This document shows positions 2,839-29,736 of a stretch of DNA of 42,027 bases, in pieces (the first letter of the stretch is position 1; every line of letters begins with the position of its first letter). This stretch comes from a virus, in the IMG/VR virus record IMGVR_UViG_3300037329_000043, positions 1-42,027 of that record, one strand, 5' to 3'. The position numbers and the translations under genes are program-made. The notes beneath the pieces are model-generated. The model made no database searches. It saw only the letters and a program-made list of their open reading frames with translations, and was not told where the DNA came from.

Positions 2839-2846
2839 TATAAATA
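2839..2846 (+). promoter_or_regulatory. T4-type late promoter octamer TATAAATA
   Basis: Perfect TATAAATA, 33 nt before the ATG of the second fibre gene at 2880. T4 late promoters consist mainly of this octamer and are read by gp55, which is encoded in this window. The unit it serves probably continues through the small partner gene and the PagL-like gene, since the next promoter lies after them. Confidence 0.8.
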
Positions 2847-2879: not shown

Positions 2880-4130
2880 ATGTCAACACCATCAAATATC
2901 ACATTAAGAACAGATATTGGGCGACCTCTCGTTTATGAAGAGCTTGATATTAACTTTGAAGAACTGAAATTTGTTATTGTTGAGTCAAACGCTCATATTG
3001 CATCAAGTGCGGCTCACGAAGCTTCTGCTATTGTGTATTCTAATACTAATCTAAGCGCATCTAATGTTGAAGAAGCTCTTGATGCTTTGGGTGTCAAGAA
3101 TAACCTTAGTGGTACATCTGATCCAACAGTTAACAACGATATCTCAGATGGTTATGCAGCATTTTCTCGGTGGGTTAATACGGTTACTAAGGAATATTTT
3201 TTGTGTCTTTATTCAGCTAATGGTGCGGCTGTGTGGGTCAAGTCATCACTCACGTTAGACGAATTGGGAACGGCAGCACTTTCAAATATAGGAACTGGTG
3301 CTTCACAAATTAGAACAAACGCAGAAAATGATCAAGTATTTATAGAATCTTCTGTGATATTTGATGCTCTTTCTTCTTCAGATAATGGTGATGGTGCATC
3401 CCTAATATCAATGGAAGATGGAACAACAGTGGAATTTGCTGTTTCGTCAAAAGCTAACCAATCAACAACTTATACAAAAACAGAATCTGACACTCTGCTT
3501 AACGCTAAAGCTGACCAAGCCACAACCTACACCGAAACAGGGGTAGATGACCTGATTGCAACGCGCACAGAAAGTCCCGGCGAGACAGCTATCACAGCCT
3601 CGGCCACCTTCACCAACTCAACCAACAACATCGCACTAACCGACATTGGATCTATCGGCCTTGAGATTGGGGATGTTGTGCAAGTGACAGGCACAGCGAA
3701 CAATAACAAGCTGTTTACGGTTGAGGTTATAACAGACAGTGGAAACGTGATAGTAAATCAGGCACACGCGGGCGGCACGACTAGAAAATCTTTGGTTGAT
3801 GAAACTGTATCGGCAACCGTTACGTTGCTGGCTAAATGGTTTAACGCTTCTGATTCTTTGGGGCGAGGGTGGGTAAGTGTCGTGGGGTCAAGGTCAAGCG
3901 GAGTTACCTATACTAACTTGTCAAACCGAGGACTTTTAATAAGTACATCTGATTTTTCTAGTCCAAACGGTTCGAGCATAGAGGTACTTGTTGATGGCAT
4001 TACTATAGCAAGGAACTCAACTAGCACAGGGCCATCCCAGAGCCAAGGGTCCGCTACTGTGCCTATCGGAAGTAGTTACTCAGCCACATCTATCGACGGA
4101 AATGTTAATAACTGGGCGGAGCTAAGATAA
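2880..4130 (+). CDS. tail fibre-like protein, mosaic
   Basis: This 416-residue protein has an N-terminal part (residues 1-140) containing a Pro-Leu-Val-Tyr-Glu-Glu-Leu-Asp segment and a 'SNVEEALDAL' segment typical of phage fibres. Around residues 198-222 come two copies of a Thr-Tyr-Thr-(Lys/Glu)-Thr-Glu-type motif joined by Lys-Ala-Asp-Gln-Ala, a common trimeric fibre shaft element. From about nucleotide 3490 the G+C content and codon choice change visibly, with many GCC, ACC and GGC codons. The C-terminal half therefore looks acquired from another phage. Its last ~200 residues form Thr/Ser/Gly-rich beta structure. It overlaps the next ATG by one base (TAATG). A late promoter precedes it. 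Confidence 0.7.
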   Translation: MSTPSNITLRTDIGRPLVYEELDINFEELKFVIVESNAHIASSAAHEASAIVYSNTNLSASNVEEALDALGVKNNLSGTSDPTVNNDISDGYAAFSRWVNTVTKEYFLCLYSANGAAVWVKSSLTLDELGTAALSNIGTGASQIRTNAENDQVFIESSVIFDALSSSDNGDGASLISMEDGTTVEFAVSSKANQSTTYTKTESDTLLNAKADQATTYTETGVDDLIATRTESPGETAITASATFTNSTNNIALTDIGSIGLEIGDVVQVTGTANNNKLFTVEVITDSGNVIVNQAHAGGTTRKSLVDETVSATVTLLAKWFNASDSLGRGWVSVVGSRSSGVTYTNLSNRGLLISTSDFSSPNGSSIEVLVDGITIARNSTSTGPSQSQGSATVPIGSSYSATSIDGNVNNWAELR

Positions 4131-4591
4131 TGACAAGCTACTACACAAACGAAAATGGAAAATGGTTTGTTGACCCCATAGTAAAAAACCACATTGGTCT
4201 AAATAAAAAAACCGAAGCAGACTTTAAAGCGTTTTTGGCTGCTAAAAATAAACCAACAACCGAGCAGCTTTTGCATCAACTAACGCAAGCGCGCAAAGAG
4301 CAGGAGCGTCAAGGCGTAACACTGAACAGCATCCGATACGCAGGCGACCTTGGAAACCGTCAAGCTCTGCAAGAAGCAATCGCGTTTATGGATGATTCGG
4401 CCTTGACCGAGTTCCCAAAGTGGAAAGATTCAGACAACAACTTTCATATTGATCATCCTTTATCTGACGTGTTTGACGCATATCGCGCAATAGGGATTCG
4501 CAGAGTTTCTTTGATAGAAGCCGAGGGGAACTATGCTGTGGAGATTGTGGCAGGCACACTAACCGAATTATCAGATGTTGTATGGCCATGA
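4130..4591 (+). CDS. fibre-associated protein, DUF4376-like
   Basis: This 153-residue soluble protein starts within the stop codon of the fibre gene (TAATG), so translation is probably coupled. A Gln-Ala-Arg-Lys-Glu-Gln-Glu-Arg-Gln-Gly segment leads into a domain with 'IRYAGDLGNRQALQEAI' (about residues 64-80). This resembles DUF4376-type proteins found beside tail fibres and in tail-fibre-assembly contexts. Codon usage matches the GC-richer second half of the fibre gene rather than the rest of the phage, so the two probably moved together. A chaperone or assembly role is inferred from position only. Confidence 0.5.
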   Translation: MTSYYTNENGKWFVDPIVKNHIGLNKKTEADFKAFLAAKNKPTTEQLLHQLTQARKEQERQGVTLNSIRYAGDLGNRQALQEAIAFMDDSALTEFPKWKDSDNNFHIDHPLSDVFDAYRAIGIRRVSLIEAEGNYAVEIVAGTLTELSDVVWP

Positions 4592-4624: not shown

Positions 4625-5107
4625 ATGAAATTTAACAAAACCGTTTTTGGTGTAGGATTTTTTGTTGTTATTCTCATTTTTGCAGGATATTCAGCGAAGT
4701 CAAATGCCGATTCTATTCACCTTGGACTTGGTAAGACATTTGTTAACTCTTCCCTTGTGATTGGCGAGATTGGGTATGAGAAAAATAACTTTGAAGTTCA
4801 AGCATCTTTAATGGAAGATGGTTCAACTAAAAATGGGCAACAAGACCAGATGCAAATCTATTCTGTATCTTATCTAACCAAACCACAATGGGGACATAAA
4901 GGGATTGAGCCTTATGTTCGGTTGGGTTTGAGTTATAATGATGGAAGTAAACTTGTTGGAAGAACAAACTTTCGGTTGGGTCTTGGTTTAGACTTTAATG
5001 AGGTGCTTCGTTTAGAGTATGTGCATCATAGTTCTGCGGGTATTCACAATCCAAATACAGGCATAGATTATGTTATACTAAATTACACGGTACAAGCGCC
5101 GTGGTGA
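4625..5107 (+). CDS. PagL-like lipid A 3-O-deacylase (outer-membrane barrel)
   Basis: This 160-residue protein has a hydrophobic signal peptide (residues 8-23, likely cut after Asn-Ala at 28), then about eight amphipathic beta strands, and ends in Trp, as outer-membrane barrels often end in an aromatic residue. Residues 134-148 read His-His-Ser-Ser-Ala-Gly-Ile-His-Asn-Pro-Asn-Thr-Gly-Ile-Asp. This matches the PagL active-site block, in which His and Ser act with a downstream acidic residue; here these would be H134, S136 and D148, where the Pseudomonas enzyme has Glu by my alignment from memory. The length is close to mature bacterial PagL. PagL removes the 3-O-acyl chain of lipid A in the outer membrane. 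A phage copy could alter host LPS late in infection (inference). It is well translated (AAAGGA RBS) and lies between the fibre genes and gp8. Confidence 0.7.
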   Translation: MKFNKTVFGVGFFVVILIFAGYSAKSNADSIHLGLGKTFVNSSLVIGEIGYEKNNFEVQASLMEDGSTKNGQQDQMQIYSVSYLTKPQWGHKGIEPYVRLGLSYNDGSKLVGRTNFRLGLGLDFNEVLRLEYVHHSSAGIHNPNTGIDYVILNYTVQAPW

Positions 5108-5122
5108 TTTTATTTAACACGA

Positions 5123-5130
5123 TATAAATA
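5123..5130 (+). promoter_or_regulatory. late promoter octamer before gp8
   Basis: Perfect TATAAATA, 31 nt upstream of the gp8 start, in the gap after the PagL-like gene. Confidence 0.8.
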
Positions 5131-5161
5131 GAGTGATATAGAGAAATTTAAAGGAATCCTT

Positions 5162-6487
5162 ATGCCAGCTATAATCACTAACGATCACAGAATTGTTGCA
5201 TCGGATTATTTTCAGAATGATCTAAGAAGCATACCCACCTATGTTTTTATTGGTGGGACAAGTGAATGGACAGACGAAAATGCACCACCAAGCATTACAG
5301 ATTCTGTTTTAGATAAAGTATTTCTTTACGATGAATTGATTGGTGCAAAAAGAATTCAATCCGCTGACGTGATTTCAGTTCTTCCTAGAATTGACTGGCA
5401 AGACAGTGTTGTGTTTGATGAGTATAGAGATGATGTAAATTTGATTGACGAAAACAATCCAGTCACAACTGAGCCTTATAACTTTTATGTTATTACAGAT
5501 GAGTTTAATGTTTATAAGTGTATTTCTAATAACTACAGAACTGCTTCTACTATAAAACCATCTGGTACAACTATCAACACATTCCAAACACCCGATGGAT
5601 ATTTGTGGAAGTATATGTATACCGTTCGTTCGCCAGATGCGTTTTCTTATATGACTCCAAGCTGGATTCCATGTTATACCCTCTACACAAATGACGGTTC
5701 AAATCAATGGTTGGTTCAGCAATCTTCTGTTGAAGGCACAATTAATAACATTTATGTAACAGATAGTGGTGCAAACTATATCAGTTCTAACCCACCAACT
5801 ATTCAGATAACTGGAAATGGTAGCGGGGCAACAGCTATTGCACAAATTGATGATATAACTGGGCTTATCGAATCTATCACAGTCACTGACGTAGGTTCTG
5901 GTTACACACAAGCCTCTGTGGTGGTTTCCAGCAACGGTGATGGTGTAGGCGCTACCGTTGTACCGGTAGTATCACCAATCAATGGTCACGGCTACGATGC
6001 GAGGTCTGAGCTTGGTTCTATCTACAAGATGATCAGAGTTGTGTTTGAAGGTTCCGAAGGTGGTATCTTACCAACGGGTATCAGCTACAGAAAAGCAGGT
6101 ATTTTATCAGTTCCTAAGCTTGCAAGTGAAACAGGTGTTGTCTTGGCACTGGGTGATGTTTCTTTTTATCAACCAAACGAAACCATTGTTGGGCAAACAT
6201 CAACAGCAGAAGGCACGATAGTTTCTGTTGATCAAAACAAAAATTATGTATACCTTTCTAATGTAACAGGGTCATTTACACAAAACGAAAACGTAGAATC
6301 TCAGACATACAACACAACACAAATATTTGGTGTTTTCTCAGATGAAAGCTTACCTATTACAACCGCTGTCGTTGCAGCCTCAAGTATCAAACTATTATCT
6401 GGTGAAGTTCTTTATGGTTCTACTAGAGAGAAAATTTCTCGGGGATTGAACCAGCAAGAAGAAATTCGTTTCGTTCTGAATTTCTAA
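5162..6487 (+). CDS. 8: baseplate wedge protein gp8
   Basis: This 441-residue protein has the hallmarks of T4 gp8 homologues. A Trp-Thr-Asp-Glu-Asn-Ala-Pro-Pro segment lies near residue 36, a Lys-Arg-Ile segment near 63, and 'FYVITDEFNVYKCISN' near 109-124. These are followed by the Ser-Thr-Ile-Lys-Pro-Ser-Gly-Thr and Asp-Gly-Tyr-Leu-Trp-Lys-Tyr-Met-Tyr blocks. In T4, gp8 dimers sit in each baseplate wedge and bind gp10, gp7 and gp6. The protein is about 100 residues longer than T4 gp8 (334). The extra length includes a beta-rich insertion from about 195 to 270 with Gly-Asn-Gly-Ser-Gly-Ala repeats. It has its own late promoter and an AAGGAA RBS. Confidence 0.85.
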   Translation: MPAIITNDHRIVASDYFQNDLRSIPTYVFIGGTSEWTDENAPPSITDSVLDKVFLYDELIGAKRIQSADVISVLPRIDWQDSVVFDEYRDDVNLIDENNPVTTEPYNFYVITDEFNVYKCISNNYRTASTIKPSGTTINTFQTPDGYLWKYMYTVRSPDAFSYMTPSWIPCYTLYTNDGSNQWLVQQSSVEGTINNIYVTDSGANYISSNPPTIQITGNGSGATAIAQIDDITGLIESITVTDVGSGYTQASVVVSSNGDGVGATVVPVVSPINGHGYDARSELGSIYKMIRVVFEGSEGGILPTGISYRKAGILSVPKLASETGVVLALGDVSFYQPNETIVGQTSTAEGTIVSVDQNKNYVYLSNVTGSFTQNENVESQTYNTTQIFGVFSDESLPITTAVVAASSIKLLSGEVLYGSTREKISRGLNQQEEIRFVLNF

Positions 6488-6559: not shown

Positions 6560-9500
6560 ATGACAATAGTAGACAAATCACGTAGTCCGTACTTTGATGA
6601 CTACAATGCCGATAAAGGATTTCAAGAAGTCTTGTTTGTCCCTTCTCGTGCTGTGCAAGTACGCGAGCTTAATCAAATCCAAAGTATGTTCTATGAGCAG
6701 ATCAATCGCTTTGGTGATCACGTCTTTGAAGATGGGTCTGTTGTTATTCCGGGCGAAAGCAACTATGATCTAGAATTAAAGTACGCAAAAACTACAATAG
6801 ACAACTTTGCTAATGTTGTTCAGTTTCTGAGTGGGTCTAACCTCAGTCTCGTTGGCACATCTGGTATTACTGCAAATGTCAAGCTGTTTCGTGAACCTGA
6901 CGGTACAGACCCATCCACATTTTTCCTAGAATATATTCAACCATCCACTGATGGCCTTGAATCTACTTTTGCTGATGCAGAAGTTGTTACTGTTTTTAAT
7001 GGTACAACCGAACTTACAACTGCTATTATTACTGAAACAGGACTCGGTTCAAAGTTTACTATTGATTCTGGTGTGTATTATATCAAAGGTCGATTTGTTC
7101 TTGTTGAGCAACAAACTGTTATTCTTGACAAGTACAGTTCAACACCTTCAAAATCTGTGTGTATAGAATATAATGAGGTGATAGTTACTGAAAATGATGA
7201 TAACTCATTGTTTGATAATGCTCAAGGCACAACCAACTTCACTGCTCCCGGTGCTCACCGTCTAAAAATTGATACAAATCTAGTGGTTGTTGATCTTGCC
7301 GATTTACCAACTATTCCATCCAATTATGTTGAGATATTCCGTGTTGATGCCGGTGATGTTCAAAAAACTTATCGTGGGCCTGATTACAATGTTCTAGGTG
7401 ACGTACTAGCACAAAGAACCTATGAAGAATCTGGCGACTATACTGTAAAATCTTACAAGATTGGTTTTGACACACACAATGAATTATTTGGTTCTGTTGA
7501 TACAACTAAGTTTGGAATTGAGCTTGACCCCGGTATTGCTTATGTTCGTGGTTACAGAGTAGAAACTAATTCAAAAACAAAAATTGTTGCTGATAAAGCC
7601 CGAGATACTGGTGTAATTAACAACAGTTCAATCTCTGGTGGTCTTGGTTATTACGTTGAAGTTGAAAATCTTTCTGCTCTTCCTAGCATAACTGCGTTGC
7701 AATCTGTAAACTTTAAAGATTCGGGTGGTAGTATTATCGGTACTGCTAGAATTCGATTTATCTCAGAAACCACTTCTGGTGTGTTTAGATTGTATTTGTT
7801 TAACGTTAAAAACGTTTCTGGACTTCGTACTACCTCATTTGTTTCAAGCGCAACTGTTATTGATTCTACAGACACAGTGACATTCACTTCTGATATTATT
7901 GACGCGGTTATTAAAGAAGCTTCTTTTAATAGCTTAGTATTTCCTATGAATGTTGAGTTTGTAAAAACTTTAAACGTAAATTCTGGGTTTTCTGATACGA
8001 GTTATGCATCTGTTAAGCAGTTGACCAATACAACTGATACATCTGGTCAAGTAACTTTCAGCGCAAATTCAAATGAAATTTTTGTTTCTCAAGATTCTCG
8101 TTATGCGATTGGTTATTACACGGATACTAACGAATCTTTTGATGTGGCAAGCAATGTCACTTTAAGCGGCACACCAACAGGATCAGTTATCACTATTTCT
8201 TTGGGTGTTGGTAATGCTTCACGCGCTATTCGTGTAAACCTACAAGTTGCTAAACAGGAAGTTATTCAAAAAATTAAAAGCAAGCAAACAATTTCTATTA
8301 CAGGAAGTTTGACTTCTGGTGTGTTGCCGCTTGGAAAAGCTGATGCTTATAATATTGTTTCTGTTGTAGATAACGAATCAAACAACATTACTAGCTTATT
8401 TACTTTAAGTAATAATAAAACACAATCATTTTATGATATATCTACAATTTCTACTTCATCTACTGTATCTGAGCCTATTACTGTAACTTTTGATTTCTTT
8501 TCACATGGTTCTGGTGATTACTTTGGTCCTGATTCTTACGTAGATATTGATTATGAAGATATTCAAACAGAAAATGGAACTCGGTTGTCTGACGTTCTTG
8601 ATTTTAGACCCCGCATTAATGATGCAGGGACTGGATTTACTGGTACTGGTTCTTCTGTTGGTAATATCCCTACGCCATTCACTATTATCAGAGCAGACCT
8701 TGAACATTACCTCAAACGTATTGACAAAGTATATTTAAACGCGAGTGGTTTGTTTGGTGTTAAGAGAGGTATTCCCTCTATTGATCCTAGTTCGCCATCA
8801 GACCCTTCTGAGGCCATGATTCTATACACCATATACATTCCACCATATACTTTTAATATATCTGATGTACAGGCTGAGAAAGTCAACAATCGCCGTTATA
8901 CCATGAGTGATATCGGTGATATTGAAACACGTCTTTCTAACGTTGAATATTATGTTAGTCTTACACTTTTAGAACAAGAAGCAGACGCAACACAAGTTGC
9001 TGATCCAGTAACTGGTGCAAATAGATTTAAAAACGGATTTTTGACTGATCGGTTTATTGATCATGGTGTTGCTGATTTTTCATGGGAAGGCTATCACGTA
9101 GCTATTTCTGATGAAGATGGAGAGCTTCGTCCTGAATTTTCTTTGAACGCAATTGACTTACAGTATGTAAGTTCAGAATCCAGCAATGTTGTTATCAATA
9201 GTGACATTATCACTTTACCATTTGATCATGTTTCTTATGTAAGACAGAATCAAAGTTCAGAGACTATGAACGTTAACCCATATGCTATCTATAGGTGGAC
9301 AGGTACTCTAAAACTAACCCCGTCTATGGATTCTTGGATTGATACACATTACAAATCCCCAGAAGTAACTTATCGAATATTTAACAATGGTCAACTTACC
9401 CAGTCGTGGAAGTCGTGGCAGCTAAACTGGACAGGTGCTTCAACAACACAAAACAGAGATTTTAGTAGAAATTCTGCTCCACACAGTGTTTGGCAAGACC

Positions 9501-11482
9501 CAAATGCTATTGGTGAGGGTGTGTGGAATAGAGGACTTTTAAGAAGAACTACAGACACCTTTAGAACTACCACAACCAATAGAACTAATATTGACATAGT
9601 AAATGATCGGGTTCTTGATACGTCCGTTGTTCCGTTTATGCGTAGCATTGATATTGATTTAACTGGTAAAGGCAACAGACCCAATTCTATCATGTACTTC
9701 TTTTTTGATGAAACAAGTATTGACTCTTACGTTAAGCCAGATGGTGGAAATTTTGGTGATCCTGTGTTTGCTGATGTGAACGGCGCATTTAACGCTATTT
9801 TCAGAATTCCTAACAACGATGAACAAAGTTTTAGAACTGGCGAGAAAACAATTATTGCTACTGATGAAGTAAACAATCAACAACAGTTGTCTACTTCTTA
9901 CGCTCAATCATTGTTTACAGCAACAGGTACGCGCCAAATTAGAAGACAAACTATTACAGCCACACGATCTATTACATCTAATACAAGATTAACTAGGCGT
10001 GTATGGAGTGACCCATTGGCTCAATCTTTCTTAGTTGAAAGAAATGGTGGTATGTTTGTTACTAAAATTAACACTTTCTTTAGTACAAAGGATGATAATG
10101 TTCCTGTAGCTGTTCAAATTCGTGAAATGGAAAATGGTTTTCCAACACAGAGACTGGTTCCCGGTGGTGAAAAGCTTTTGCTTCCATCCGAAGTGACTAC
10201 TACAAATGATGCAACGACACCAACTACTTTTGAATTCGATCATCCTGTATATCTTGAAGACGGAAATGAGTATTGCTTTGTGTTGATGTCAAATTCTAAT
10301 GCTTATAACGCTTACATTGGGCGTATGGGCAAACAAGATTTACAAACTAATCAATTTATTGTTAGACAACCTTATGCTGGTGTTCTTTTTAAGTCTCAGA
10401 ATAACTCAACTTGGACAGAAGACCAACAGGCTGACTTACAATTTGAAATTTTTGTTGCTAAATTTGATACCAGCGTGACCGGTATTGTTGTAACAGAAAA
10501 TAAAGACCTTGATATGATTAGACTTTCGGGTAATCCTATAGCTACAGAAATTGGTTCTAGTGATGTTATAATTTATCGGGAAAATCACAACTATGTACAG
10601 GGTACTAATCTTAGCATTTCAGGTTCAACAGGTGCAAACAACATTACAGCTACTGAAATAAATGATTCACACACCGTTGTTGAAGTTATTGATCCTAACA
10701 GAATTAAAATAACACTAACTAGCGTTGCTGATACTAGCGGTGATATTGGTGGTTTGGTTGTTGAAATCTCAGATACTATTCAGGCGTCTTTGATTAATCC
10801 AAATATTCCTGTTATTGACTTGACAGATACTAATGTTGCATTTTTTGCAAAAGGAACTACTGGCAAATCAATCAATGGATCAGAGACTCCATATGCTGTT
10901 CAGTCACTCTACAGTGCTGTTGATAATGAAACTATTAATCAACTTAGTTTCCCATTATTGATAACTAATAGGAATGATGAAGTAGCCAATACAAGCAATC
11001 AAAGAACCTTTAAAATGCTGATGGAGTTAACTTCTACTAATGAAAATGTTTCTCCGGTAATTGACATGAGTGGTGCTACTGTTATTACACCATTTTCACA
11101 AGTTACATACAACCAAACTACAGTAACAGATGGTTCCAATAATTGGGCAAACTATAGGACAAGAGTAAATCCTTTGTCTAGTCCTTCTGATATGTTCAAA
11201 ATATTTCTTGACATCAAAAGTGTTAATTCAGCTAATGTAATTATTTCTGCGAGAGTTTCTAACAGCGAAGAAGAGCTTCAAGATTCTGACTGGGTAGAAA
11301 TTCCAAACACAACAGTTGACACACCATCTGATGGTAACAACTTTTATGAATATCAATTTGAAAAAACAGGGTTTTCAGAATTCTCGTTTTACCAAGTCAT
11401 GATTCAGTTAAAATCTCAAAGTTCGGTATTTTATCCATCATGCAAGCGTCTTCGTGTTATTGCATTGTCTGACTTTTCATAG
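6560..11482 (+). CDS. large virion structural protein, DUF4815-type
   Basis: This 1640-residue protein is the largest in the window. Residues 9-60 carry the DUF4815 signature: a Tyr-Phe-Asp-Asp-Tyr motif, then Leu-Phe-Val-Pro-Ser-Arg-Ala-Val-Gln-Val-Arg-Glu-Leu, then Arg-Phe-Gly-Asp-His-Val-Phe and Gly-Ser. The body is a long series of Thr/Ser/Asn-rich beta domains with no signal peptide or membrane segment. DUF4815 proteins are virion components of T4-like phages of marine bacteria and probably belong to the baseplate periphery or a fibre attachment. The exact T4 equivalent is uncertain; gp10 is a candidate by position. The gene has its own late promoter, and the next gene follows after 5 nt. 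Confidence 0.75.
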   Translation: MTIVDKSRSPYFDDYNADKGFQEVLFVPSRAVQVRELNQIQSMFYEQINRFGDHVFEDGSVVIPGESNYDLELKYAKTTIDNFANVVQFLSGSNLSLVGTSGITANVKLFREPDGTDPSTFFLEYIQPSTDGLESTFADAEVVTVFNGTTELTTAIITETGLGSKFTIDSGVYYIKGRFVLVEQQTVILDKYSSTPSKSVCIEYNEVIVTENDDNSLFDNAQGTTNFTAPGAHRLKIDTNLVVVDLADLPTIPSNYVEIFRVDAGDVQKTYRGPDYNVLGDVLAQRTYEESGDYTVKSYKIGFDTHNELFGSVDTTKFGIELDPGIAYVRGYRVETNSKTKIVADKARDTGVINNSSISGGLGYYVEVENLSALPSITALQSVNFKDSGGSIIGTARIRFISETTSGVFRLYLFNVKNVSGLRTTSFVSSATVIDSTDTVTFTSDIIDAVIKEASFNSLVFPMNVEFVKTLNVNSGFSDTSYASVKQLTNTTDTSGQVTFSANSNEIFVSQDSRYAIGYYTDTNESFDVASNVTLSGTPTGSVITISLGVGNASRAIRVNLQVAKQEVIQKIKSKQTISITGSLTSGVLPLGKADAYNIVSVVDNESNNITSLFTLSNNKTQSFYDISTISTSSTVSEPITVTFDFFSHGSGDYFGPDSYVDIDYEDIQTENGTRLSDVLDFRPRINDAGTGFTGTGSSVGNIPTPFTIIRADLEHYLKRIDKVYLNASGLFGVKRGIPSIDPSSPSDPSEAMILYTIYIPPYTFNISDVQAEKVNNRRYTMSDIGDIETRLSNVEYYVSLTLLEQEADATQVADPVTGANRFKNGFLTDRFIDHGVADFSWEGYHVAISDEDGELRPEFSLNAIDLQYVSSESSNVVINSDIITLPFDHVSYVRQNQSSETMNVNPYAIYRWTGTLKLTPSMDSWIDTHYKSPEVTYRIFNNGQLTQSWKSWQLNWTGASTTQNRDFSRNSAPHSVWQDPNAIGEGVWNRGLLRRTTDTFRTTTTNRTNIDIVNDRVLDTSVVPFMRSIDIDLTGKGNRPNSIMYFFFDETSIDSYVKPDGGNFGDPVFADVNGAFNAIFRIPNNDEQSFRTGEKTIIATDEVNNQQQLSTSYAQSLFTATGTRQIRRQTITATRSITSNTRLTRRVWSDPLAQSFLVERNGGMFVTKINTFFSTKDDNVPVAVQIREMENGFPTQRLVPGGEKLLLPSEVTTTNDATTPTTFEFDHPVYLEDGNEYCFVLMSNSNAYNAYIGRMGKQDLQTNQFIVRQPYAGVLFKSQNNSTWTEDQQADLQFEIFVAKFDTSVTGIVVTENKDLDMIRLSGNPIATEIGSSDVIIYRENHNYVQGTNLSISGSTGANNITATEINDSHTVVEVIDPNRIKITLTSVADTSGDIGGLVVEISDTIQASLINPNIPVIDLTDTNVAFFAKGTTGKSINGSETPYAVQSLYSAVDNETINQLSFPLLITNRNDEVANTSNQRTFKMLMELTSTNENVSPVIDMSGATVITPFSQVTYNQTTVTDGSNNWANYRTRVNPLSSPSDMFKIFLDIKSVNSANVIISARVSNSEEELQDSDWVEIPNTTVDTPSDGNNFYEYQFEKTGFSEFSFYQVMIQLKSQSSVFYPSCKRLRVIALSDFS

Positions 11483-11487
11483 GGGGT

Positions 11488-11697
11488 TTGGCAATGCATA
11501 GAATAGAAGGCAAAGAAAACTTATATAAAGACCCAGATTCAGGGGCTATAATAAACAATGATAAAAATTCTTACGAACTGGCTAAGGCTAACAAAAGAAG
11601 AATTCTTAAAGAAAGAGAAAAACAAAAAAGCCTTGAACAAAGAATTGAGTACCTTGAGTCAATTATCAAAAGGATGGCAGAAAAAAATGGCATTTAA
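11488..11697 (+). CDS. small coiled-coil virion-region protein
   Basis: This 69-residue protein starts Met-Ala-Met-His-Arg-Ile-Glu-Gly-Lys-Glu-Asn-Leu-Tyr and contains 'DPDSGAIINNDKNSYELAK', followed by a highly charged helix (about residues 35-66) with heptad spacing. I believe similar short proteins occur in the structural clusters of other marine T4-like phages, but no function is known to me. An RBS (GGGGG) lies in the 5-nt gap after the preceding stop. The 3' end overlaps the lysozyme start by 11 nt. Confidence 0.65.
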   Translation: MAMHRIEGKENLYKDPDSGAIINNDKNSYELAKANKRRILKEREKQKSLEQRIEYLESIIKRMAEKNGI

Positions 11698-12232
11698 AAG
11701 AGCATTTAATCATATCATTCTAGTTGAAGGCGGTTATTCTGATAACCCTTTTGACTCGGGTGGAAAAACAAAGTATGGAGTTACTGAACAATTGGCACGA
11801 AGGTATGGGTATGATGGTCTTATGAAACACATGTCTTTAAGTAAAGCTGAACAAATCTACAAAACACACTTTTGGGATAAGCTGATGCTTAATGATGTGT
11901 CTGTGATCTCATACGACATCGCCCACGAGATGTTTGACACTGGTGTAAACATGGGTAGGGCTAGAGCAGGAAACTTCTTACAGAGGTCTTTAAACGTACT
12001 AAACAACAAACAATCTATCACTCCTGATATTGTGGTTGATGGGTTTGTTGGAAGAGGTACATTAAAAAGCTTAAAAGATGTTTTTTCTTCTCGTGGTGAT
12101 GAAGTTCTTTATAAAATGCTTAACTCTCTACAAGGTGCTTTTTACATAGAGCTTGCAGAACGAAGAGAAAAAGACGAAACTTTTGTTTATGGTTGGTTTA
12201 AGAATCGCGTAAGCTTTTATAGAAATTCTTAA
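11687..12232 (+). CDS. GH108-type lysozyme (peptidoglycan hydrolase)
   Basis: The ATG at 11687 is chosen because the protein from this point aligns with the GH108 family from its first residues; the longer frame from 11558 would only add sequence overlapping the previous gene. Of its 181 residues, 14-34 read Glu-Gly-Gly-Tyr, Asn-Pro-Phe-Asp, Gly-Gly-Lys-Thr-Lys-Tyr-Gly-Val-Thr, the GH108 signature with Glu14 as the expected catalytic acid. A C-terminal half with Val-Asp-Gly-Phe-Val-Gly-Arg-Gly-Thr (about 119-127) fits the peptidoglycan-binding domain paired with this family. There is no signal peptide. Placement among baseplate genes allows either a virion-associated role, like gp5 lysozyme of T4, or an endolysin; the sequence does not decide. 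Confidence 0.85.
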   Translation: MAFKRAFNHIILVEGGYSDNPFDSGGKTKYGVTEQLARRYGYDGLMKHMSLSKAEQIYKTHFWDKLMLNDVSVISYDIAHEMFDTGVNMGRARAGNFLQRSLNVLNNKQSITPDIVVDGFVGRGTLKSLKDVFSSRGDEVLYKMLNSLQGAFYIELAERREKDETFVYGWFKNRVSFYRNS

Positions 12233-27931: not shown

Positions 27932-29736
27932 CATGCCTCGATTTTATATTTTATAGAACCTGCATCGTACATAATTGTGTATCCATGCATGTTCATATTC
28001 TCTTTTTCTGTTAGTTGTTCATCAAACCTTTCTAATACATTTTTTAGTTTATGCTTCATGAAAGCCTTTCTTGAATATCTTTCCAGTCCCTTAAAGTAAT
28101 GATAATTTGGTTCTGTAACTCCAACCATTTCAAATCCATACTTTTCATAAACATTTCCGTGTGAGTAGTCCAAACTTGCGAAGGTTTCTATAATACTCCA
28201 TACATTGTTCCTTTGAAAGTGTGTGAGAAGCTTAGAGAAGCCACCTAGTACGTTCTTTGATGTTGCATAACGCGCTAGGTCATACTGATCAGAAGTCTTG
28301 TCTGTGAGCTTCTTAAAGCTGATACAAGCCACAAGATCACCATTAGAAACCAAACCATAATTAATTTTTGAATCATTGTATCCTTGTACGTGTGTTTCTG
28401 TGTAAAATTCCCTAGCCTCACTTGCAGTTACAGAAACTATTTCACACTTCCGAGCATAAACTTTTTCTTTGGTTGATTTGTTGCACTTTTGAATGATTTT
28501 TTCTTTTATGATTTCTTTGGTTACTGGATTTGCCCACTGATCTTCATACACATGAATCAATAGAATCCCTGCTTCTTTACAAGCCAGCGCCTTTTGTTGA
28601 TGATAAGCCTTATCTTTATGAACATCTGAATGCCAATACACCCCGTTATACTCAATAGCCACGTTATGTTCTGGAATATAGATATCGAGTTCTTTTGGTT
28701 CTAACACAATTCTATTACTTGTTTCATAATTGATTCCAGCTTCATCAAGAATGTTACAAATTTCTTTTTCTGCATTAGAAACCGTTCTTAAAATATTGTC
28801 ATTAACATCTATATCGTGTTCTCTTAAAGCTTGCAGGACTGTTCTGTGTGAACCAATTCCTAATCGCTTTGCAATGATATGCGAGTTACCAACTTCTTTG
28901 TACATTTTTGACAATGATTCTTTATCATACAAAACAGAATTAGCCAGTTCGCTATAATGTGATCTAGCAGAAAAAACATGTCCATACTTTTTTAAGTTGG
29001 CTTCTTTTACTTTTTCTTTTACTTCATCACACATCATCGGGCTATGGACACCGTATCTTTCTGTGTTTGTGGCTTGTGTTCTTGCTAGAATATCAGGGTT
29101 TTGTAGTGGTGATATAACACCCCATTTAGAAATCATTCCAGCTTTAACCTTATCCTTTGCAAACTCAAATGGATTTGCTGATCCATACTTTTCTATGTTG
29201 GATGATTCTCTAGCCGCGATTACCTCTGGATTGGATAAATGGTGTGTATGTCCAGTGCGCTCAAAATATTCTTCCTTGTAAGATTCTTGAAACTCTTTTG
29301 ATGAGATATAACAAGCTGAACCGTACCTTTCCATGTTAGTTTTTCTAATCTTTTCTTTTACAGCATCACTTCCCATATGATGCTTTGATCCATACTTTTT
29401 AAGATTGGTTTCTTCTCTTTTTTTCAGTGTTCCTTTGCTTGTACAAACCTTGCTACAAAAAGCCCTGAAACCATTCTTGTAATAGTGATCAACCTTAACC
29501 CTGTTTGCACCAATAGGAGCAACACACCCACACTGACCACAATATTGAATCTCGGTTATGTCATTCATCACAACAAAGCATCGTGTTGGTGCTTTTACCG
29601 TGTCATAAGAATCATCAAGAAACGTAGTTGCTTCTTTTAGAGCAGAAACAAATTTCAAGTATTTTTCTGTTCTGAGTTCTCGCCCTGTCGGGTATCCGTT
29701 GTCAATAATAAACTTTTTTAGTTCTTGGTGTGGCAT
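27931..29736 (-). CDS. free-standing homing endonuclease, Vsr-like/EDxHD type
   Basis: This 601-residue protein, from N to C, has a Cys4 zinc-binding block (C66, C69, C94, C98). At about residues 111-252 come repeated motifs of the form Asn-x-(Lys/Glu)-(Lys/Arg)-Tyr-Gly (five copies), found in phage homing enzymes as DNA-binding repeats. A helix-turn-helix-like stretch follows (about 273-310). A Vsr-type nuclease core runs from 323 to 400 with Glu323, Glu349-Leu-Asp351, 'VAIEYNGVYWHSD' and Ile-His-Val-Tyr-Glu-Asp-Gln-Trp. A C-terminal acetyltransferase-like part (about 435-575) includes 'LARYATSKNVLGGFSKLL'. Such genes spread by cutting alleles that lack them. It points against its neighbour gp23, has an AAAGGA RBS and its own late promoter, and shares the terminator. 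No frameshift is seen, so it may be active. Confidence 0.82.
   Translation of the reverse strand: MPHQELKKFIIDNGYPTGRELRTEKYLKFVSALKEATTFLDDSYDTVKAPTRCFVVMNDITEIQYCGQCGCVAPIGANRVKVDHYYKNGFRAFCSKVCTSKGTLKKREETNLKKYGSKHHMGSDAVKEKIRKTNMERYGSACYISSKEFQESYKEEYFERTGHTHHLSNPEVIAARESSNIEKYGSANPFEFAKDKVKAGMISKWGVISPLQNPDILARTQATNTERYGVHSPMMCDEVKEKVKEANLKKYGHVFSARSHYSELANSVLYDKESLSKMYKEVGNSHIIAKRLGIGSHRTVLQALREHDIDVNDNILRTVSNAEKEICNILDEAGINYETSNRIVLEPKELDIYIPEHNVAIEYNGVYWHSDVHKDKAYHQQKALACKEAGILLIHVYEDQWANPVTKEIIKEKIIQKCNKSTKEKVYARKCEIVSVTASEAREFYTETHVQGYNDSKINYGLVSNGDLVACISFKKLTDKTSDQYDLARYATSKNVLGGFSKLLTHFQRNNVWSIIETFASLDYSHGNVYEKYGFEMVGVTEPNYHYFKGLERYSRKAFMKHKLKNVLERFDEQLTEKENMNMHGYTIMYDAGSIKYKIEA

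Follow-up and report, generated by a model that had tools for sequence, protein, structure and literature searches.

A phage clade of PagL-like predicted lipid A deacylases encoded beside tail-fibre and lysis genes

Why a phage should carry a gene for a PagL-like protein, and at what stage of infection its product might act, are questions raised by a 42,027-base virus record from IMG/VR (hereafter the window, meaning this whole stretch of DNA). Of the steps of phage lysis, rupture of the outer membrane is understood least; in a survey of 677 phages, approximately 13% (91) lacked a recognisable spanin, and what serves in its place is an open question (PMC6139136). A candidate lipid A-editing enzyme that recurs beside lysis genes would be a concrete factor for outer-membrane rupture, and a phage clade of PagL would also offer a phage-derived tool for altering the lipid A of Gram-negative bacteria.

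A PagL-like barrel in a late fibre unit

The gene occupies positions 4625-5107 of the plus strand and encodes, from an ATG start, a 160-residue protein that the initial annotation had described as a secreted PagL-like barrel with active-site residues H134, S136 and D148; coordinates, residues and family all hold. Searched alone as a single sequence against Pfam, the protein matches PF09411 (PagL) with 32.9 bits against a cut-off of 23 (E 8e-8), while PHROGs and NCBIfam yield no informative match, and 30 of the 31 aligned sequences of its clade match the same family (E 0.001). Purifying selection is evident from dN/dS ratios of 0.06-0.25 across those pairs within the clade that allow a sensible computation, and of 0.10-0.15 between the window protein and its close relatives; by these scores and ratios, the PagL match exceeds chance. 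Sequence comparison with the PDB recovers the PagL of Pseudomonas aeruginosa (2ERV) at E 0.042 for the window protein alone and, as the sole match, at E 1.6e-4 for a profile that combines the window protein with six relatives, with both alignments placing HHSSAGIHNPNTGID of the window protein on HYSNAGLKQPNDGIE of 2ERV. The 2ERV partners of H134, S136 and D148 in these alignments are, in PagL numbering, His126, Ser128 and Glu140.

Structure prediction leads to the same protein. An AlphaFold2 model built from 31 sequences is an eight-stranded barrel (pLDDT 85) for which Foldseek ranks both chains of 2ERV first (E 1.3e-5, TM 0.57-0.62) and VIA-align places 2ERV at the top by Z (17.6; rmsd 1.9 Å over 124 residues, 18% identity), two units above the runner-up barrel (Z 15.6); with an earlier AlphaFold model from 7 sequences, PagL was not top by Z (14.4). 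Read from the sequence, the N-terminus resembles a signal peptide (residues 1-28, approximately), being positively charged and hydrophobic and closing in an A-x-A-type cleavage motif, KSNA-DS (cut at the hyphen), after which come the barrel (approximately 30-157), carrying the catalytic set H134, S136, N144 and D148, and a terminal aromatic residue, W160. The sequence contains no Cys lipobox and the fold is a barrel, so that the protein does not class as a spanin. In common with P. aeruginosa PagL and PF09411, the window protein thus has an eight-stranded barrel with a His-x-Ser pair near the C-terminus and, shared with the P. aeruginosa enzyme, Asn at His+10, an acidic residue at His+14 and an export signal, here a putative one read from the sequence; it differs in its low overall identity, in having Asp for Glu140 and Ser for the Asn that follows the catalytic Ser, and in being phage-borne within a late fibre or lysis unit, whereas the gene of P. 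aeruginosa is chromosomal.

The surroundings of the gene are those of a T4-type phage. Upstream, the T4-type late promoter word TATAAATA (2839-2846, plus strand, as are all features of this region) precedes a gene for a tail fibre-like protein of 416 residues (2880-4130; phrog_18834, of unknown function, E 7e-14), whose label as a fibre is inferred from its position and neighbours and whose cluster (c3, 17 ORFs) recurs next to PagL in other phages. It is followed by a DUF4376 protein of 153 residues (4130-4591; PF14301, 29.3 bits against a cut-off of 25; cluster c1, 18 ORFs), a gene that adjoins PagL in many phages, and then by PagL itself. Downstream lie a short gap (5108-5161) containing a second copy of the promoter word (5123-5130), a gp8-like baseplate wedge protein (5162-6487; PF09215, 46.4 bits; phrog_438, E 4e-89), a DUF4815 protein of 1640 residues (6560-11482; PF16075, E 2e-68) and an endolysin composed of a GH108 muramidase and a peptidoglycan-binding domain (11558-12232; PF05838, PF09374 and the endolysin family phrog_315). 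The promoter word occurs 16 times in the window, four times more often than the 3.9 copies expected and a count reached by none of 100 shuffles. Because its copies at 2839 and 5123 bracket the fibre-like gene, DUF4376 and PagL, PagL is most simply read as closing a late fibre unit of T4 type, in keeping with the original placement of the gene between fibre genes and gp8 in a late unit. A terminator-like hairpin (5086-5103) overlaps the PagL stop, such hairpins being no commoner than chance.

The gp8, DUF4815 and fibre-like neighbours, the portal, gp23, terminase and sheath genes in the window, and the presence of the PagL gene in 41 further viral contigs rule out a stray host gene. Other T4-type genes in the window encode a neck protein, a tail sheath stabiliser, a prohead protease and a scaffold. 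Judged by gp23, the nearest phage in isolation is Pseudomonas phage pf16 (70% identity), in whose annotation no block of fibre, DUF4376 and PagL genes stands before gp8. Elsewhere in the window, the large terminase subunit (16715-19489, 924 residues) bears an intein-like insert in which Pfam recognises a LAGLIDADG endonuclease domain, and a 601-residue DUF7487 protein is encoded next to gp23 on the opposite strand (27934-29736, minus).

Active-site residues of the phage clade

Across the 31 aligned sequences of the clade, which are as little as 36% identical, ten columns are invariant (S82, G101, L118, G119, H134, S136, S137, N144, G146 and D148). The His-x-Ser pair H134/S136, aligned to that of 2ERV, is among them in 31 of 31 sequences, and together with N144 and D148 it stays fixed while most positions of the protein vary. 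A profile of the phage clade also finds bacterial PagL proteins, with the catalytic block aligned. Given the homology, fold, invariant catalytic set and purifying selection, the window protein is very probably an active PagL-type lipid A deacylase.

The initial annotation had singled out the change from Glu to Asp at the third catalytic position as one worth testing, an emphasis that a bacterial sample does not sustain. PF09411 was sought in 143 genomes from the class of Denitromonas halophila, 36 of which matched, and 23 fetched proteins with a readable motif were compared, the position equivalent to Glu140 being counted as His+14. That position is occupied by Asn in 11 proteins, Asp in nine, Thr in two and Glu in one, such that Asn or Asp accounts for 20 of the 23; in the phage clade, it is always Asp. 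Since Asp is found in 9 of the 23 and Glu in only one, Asp at the Glu140 position is, by this count, ordinary, and its reading as a special catalytic change finds no support in this sample. A sharper mark of the clade than Asp148 is the residue that follows the catalytic Ser: all 23 bacterial proteins have Asn there, whereas each protein of the phage clade has Ser.

Relatives and their recurrent neighbours

Three scans of IMG/VR gave the 41 contigs with PagL relatives. A scan of genome contigs added three more, namely two Denitromonas loci (L084 and L085) and one proteobacterial MAG, an earlier scan of this kind having returned none; approximately 50,700 annotated phage records held no match at E 1 to the window protein or to its relative L041, and no relative of the clade was found on plasmids. 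In the two Denitromonas genomes, PagL lies in prophage-like regions after fibre-like and fibre-assembly-like genes, and in L085 chromosomal genes follow it directly. PagL is itself an established enzyme family; searches of open-licence literature turned up no coherent phage clade of it linked to fibre and lysis genes, and no paper that describes a phage-encoded PagL in its title or the opening of its abstract. Apparent mentions of PagL in two viral papers proved to be names of authors in the reference lists.

Immediate neighbours of PagL were clustered, and representatives of the clusters were identified with Pfam and PHROGs. PagL often closes tail-fibre units, and DUF4376 proteins (45-73% identical) and fibre parts recur beside it in phages whose neighbouring genes are otherwise unrelated. 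Lysis genes are recurrent companions too. Among 31 distinct loci, each with its own PagL sequence and 1 kb or more of DNA downstream, and dereplicated by eye, 16 have a verified lysis gene or a homologue of one that starts at most 1.3 kb downstream of PagL on the same strand (L005, L006, L008, L012, L014, L015, L016, L018, L019, L020, L021, L022, L028, L033, L035 and L086). Since the lysis queries were themselves taken from downstream neighbours, lysis genes of other kinds that lie upstream may have escaped the count, and absence upstream is not an even-handed comparison. In about half of the loci no lysis gene was found nearby (e.g., L023-L026, L029-L032, L084 and L085).

The downstream genes encode holins, spanins and endolysins of several chemistries, the endolysins near PagL being of about five kinds (amidase_2, a second amidase-like type, M15-type, lytic transglycosylase and T4-type lysozyme). 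As these kinds differ between loci, the position of PagL is a recurrent one that does not go with any single lysis gene. L015, which is 138 kb long and related to the window's phage, has gp8, DUF4815, PagL, a small gene here called c2 and an M15-type endolysin in that order, with no fibre gene adjoining PagL. Two-component spanins follow PagL in L006 and L028, and in L033 it is an Rz-type spanin that lies beside PagL, with a lipoprotein-like ORF overlapping the spanin gene. Because spanins coexist with PagL at these three loci, PagL does not replace them, and spanin replacement as a general role is ruled out. PagL would share with phage spanins (Rz/Rz1 and u-spanins) the character of a late, outer-membrane-directed protein encoded beside holin and endolysin, but the window protein is a predicted enzyme barrel, whereas spanins are a lipoprotein or a membrane fusion pair.

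A possible part in lysis or release

In the explanation favoured here, a PagL-type lipid A 3-O-deacylase would be made late, together with the tail fibre, exported across the inner membrane and, with the help of the host's machinery, folded into the outer membrane, where lipid A of the outer leaflet would lose an ester-linked acyl chain through His134-Ser136 with Asp148 and Asn144. The changed shape of the deacylated lipid A may then loosen and curve the outer membrane as infection ends, easing either the opening of the cell by spanins and endolysin or the escape of progeny from membrane debris; a late burst of deacylase would coincide with the action of holin, endolysin and spanins. In Salmonella, active PagL raises outer-membrane vesiculation approximately fourfold, and an H163A/S165A mutant does not (PMC4958258). 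The whole chain, from late expression of an active enzyme to a looser outer leaflet at lysis or release, is given slightly less than an even chance. Superinfection, lysis and adsorption to debris, the three roles proposed at the outset, cannot be told apart from the window alone, and it is the relatives, in which PagL repeatedly heads lysis cassettes, that tip the balance towards lysis or release. Counting against this explanation are the 18% identity to 2ERV, the distance of 6.5 kb, with gp8 and DUF4815 intervening, between PagL and the GH108 endolysin of the window, and the loci, about half, that lack a nearby lysis gene. Moreover, lysis and fibre genes often adjoin, and the place of PagL may hence be just a favoured site for cargo.

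The adjacency of PagL to the fibre end keeps the ideas of receptor and debris alive, and these form the main rival. PagL may modify the receptor or the cell surface, with altered packing of LPS stopping superinfecting phages, or stopping progeny from binding to the infected cell or its debris, and may travel with the fibre end since the fibre would bind LPS. Such a reading would account for the late unit shared with the fibre-like gene and DUF4376, for the recurrence of fibre end and PagL amid unrelated neighbours, seemingly moving as one piece, and for the Denitromonas prophages, where a fibre gene, a fibre-assembly-like gene and PagL follow one another with no lysis gene next. Nevertheless, the acyl chains of lipid A are buried and phages usually bind the core or the O antigen, superinfection exclusion would call for earlier expression, and the repeated lysis-gene neighbours would be left unexplained, as would L015, where an endolysin adjoins PagL and a fibre gene does not; taken jointly, these receptor and surface roles are considered rather unlikely.

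The remaining alternatives concern the protein itself. An active hydrolase with another substrate, for instance outer-leaflet phospholipids, would serve as an outer-membrane phospholipase at lysis, and both the remoteness of the clade from characterised PagL (18% identity) and the Ser that every member has in place of Asn after the catalytic Ser speak for this; yet the barrel and the other active-site residues agree with PagL, and no feature suggests a phospholipid, which makes such a substrate improbable. Small barrels are common in phages, as matches in BFVD attest, and lambda Lom, a surface protein of the Ail/OmpX kind, is likewise a small outer-membrane barrel encoded beside a fibre gene, as are other such phage barrels. 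An inactive barrel of comparable function is nonetheless very improbable for a protein in which H134, S136, N144 and D148 are invariant and most other positions vary, and Lom is not known to have the PagL catalytic set.

If the lysis or release reading is correct, a lipid A deacylase, often accompanied by c2, could constitute an enzymatic fourth lysis element beside holin, endolysin and spanins in many Gram-negative phages, a generalisation offered only tentatively. In 18 distinct loci, by a count made by eye, the gene that comes immediately after PagL is c2, which encodes a protein of 70-90 residues (e.g., L003, 6095-6319; L015, 8497-8733; L016, 8417-8632). Its product, which carries the motif NRINHxRLVWFALTRE..FPWLKNDE, spans the membrane once, near the N-terminus, and has a tail of strong conservation (24 invariant columns in 12 sequences), and it has no informative match in Pfam, PHROGs or NCBIfam. 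Altogether, c2 was found at 44 viral loci, some of them without PagL nearby (e.g., Xanthomonas phage LucasX). The gene is frameshifted in L001 (4726-4949) and L002 (8477-8700), and in the window, where close relatives carry c2 in the gap after PagL, it has been deleted save for its recognisable last bases. PagL is intact in all three, and is thus independent of c2 in the lineage of the window.
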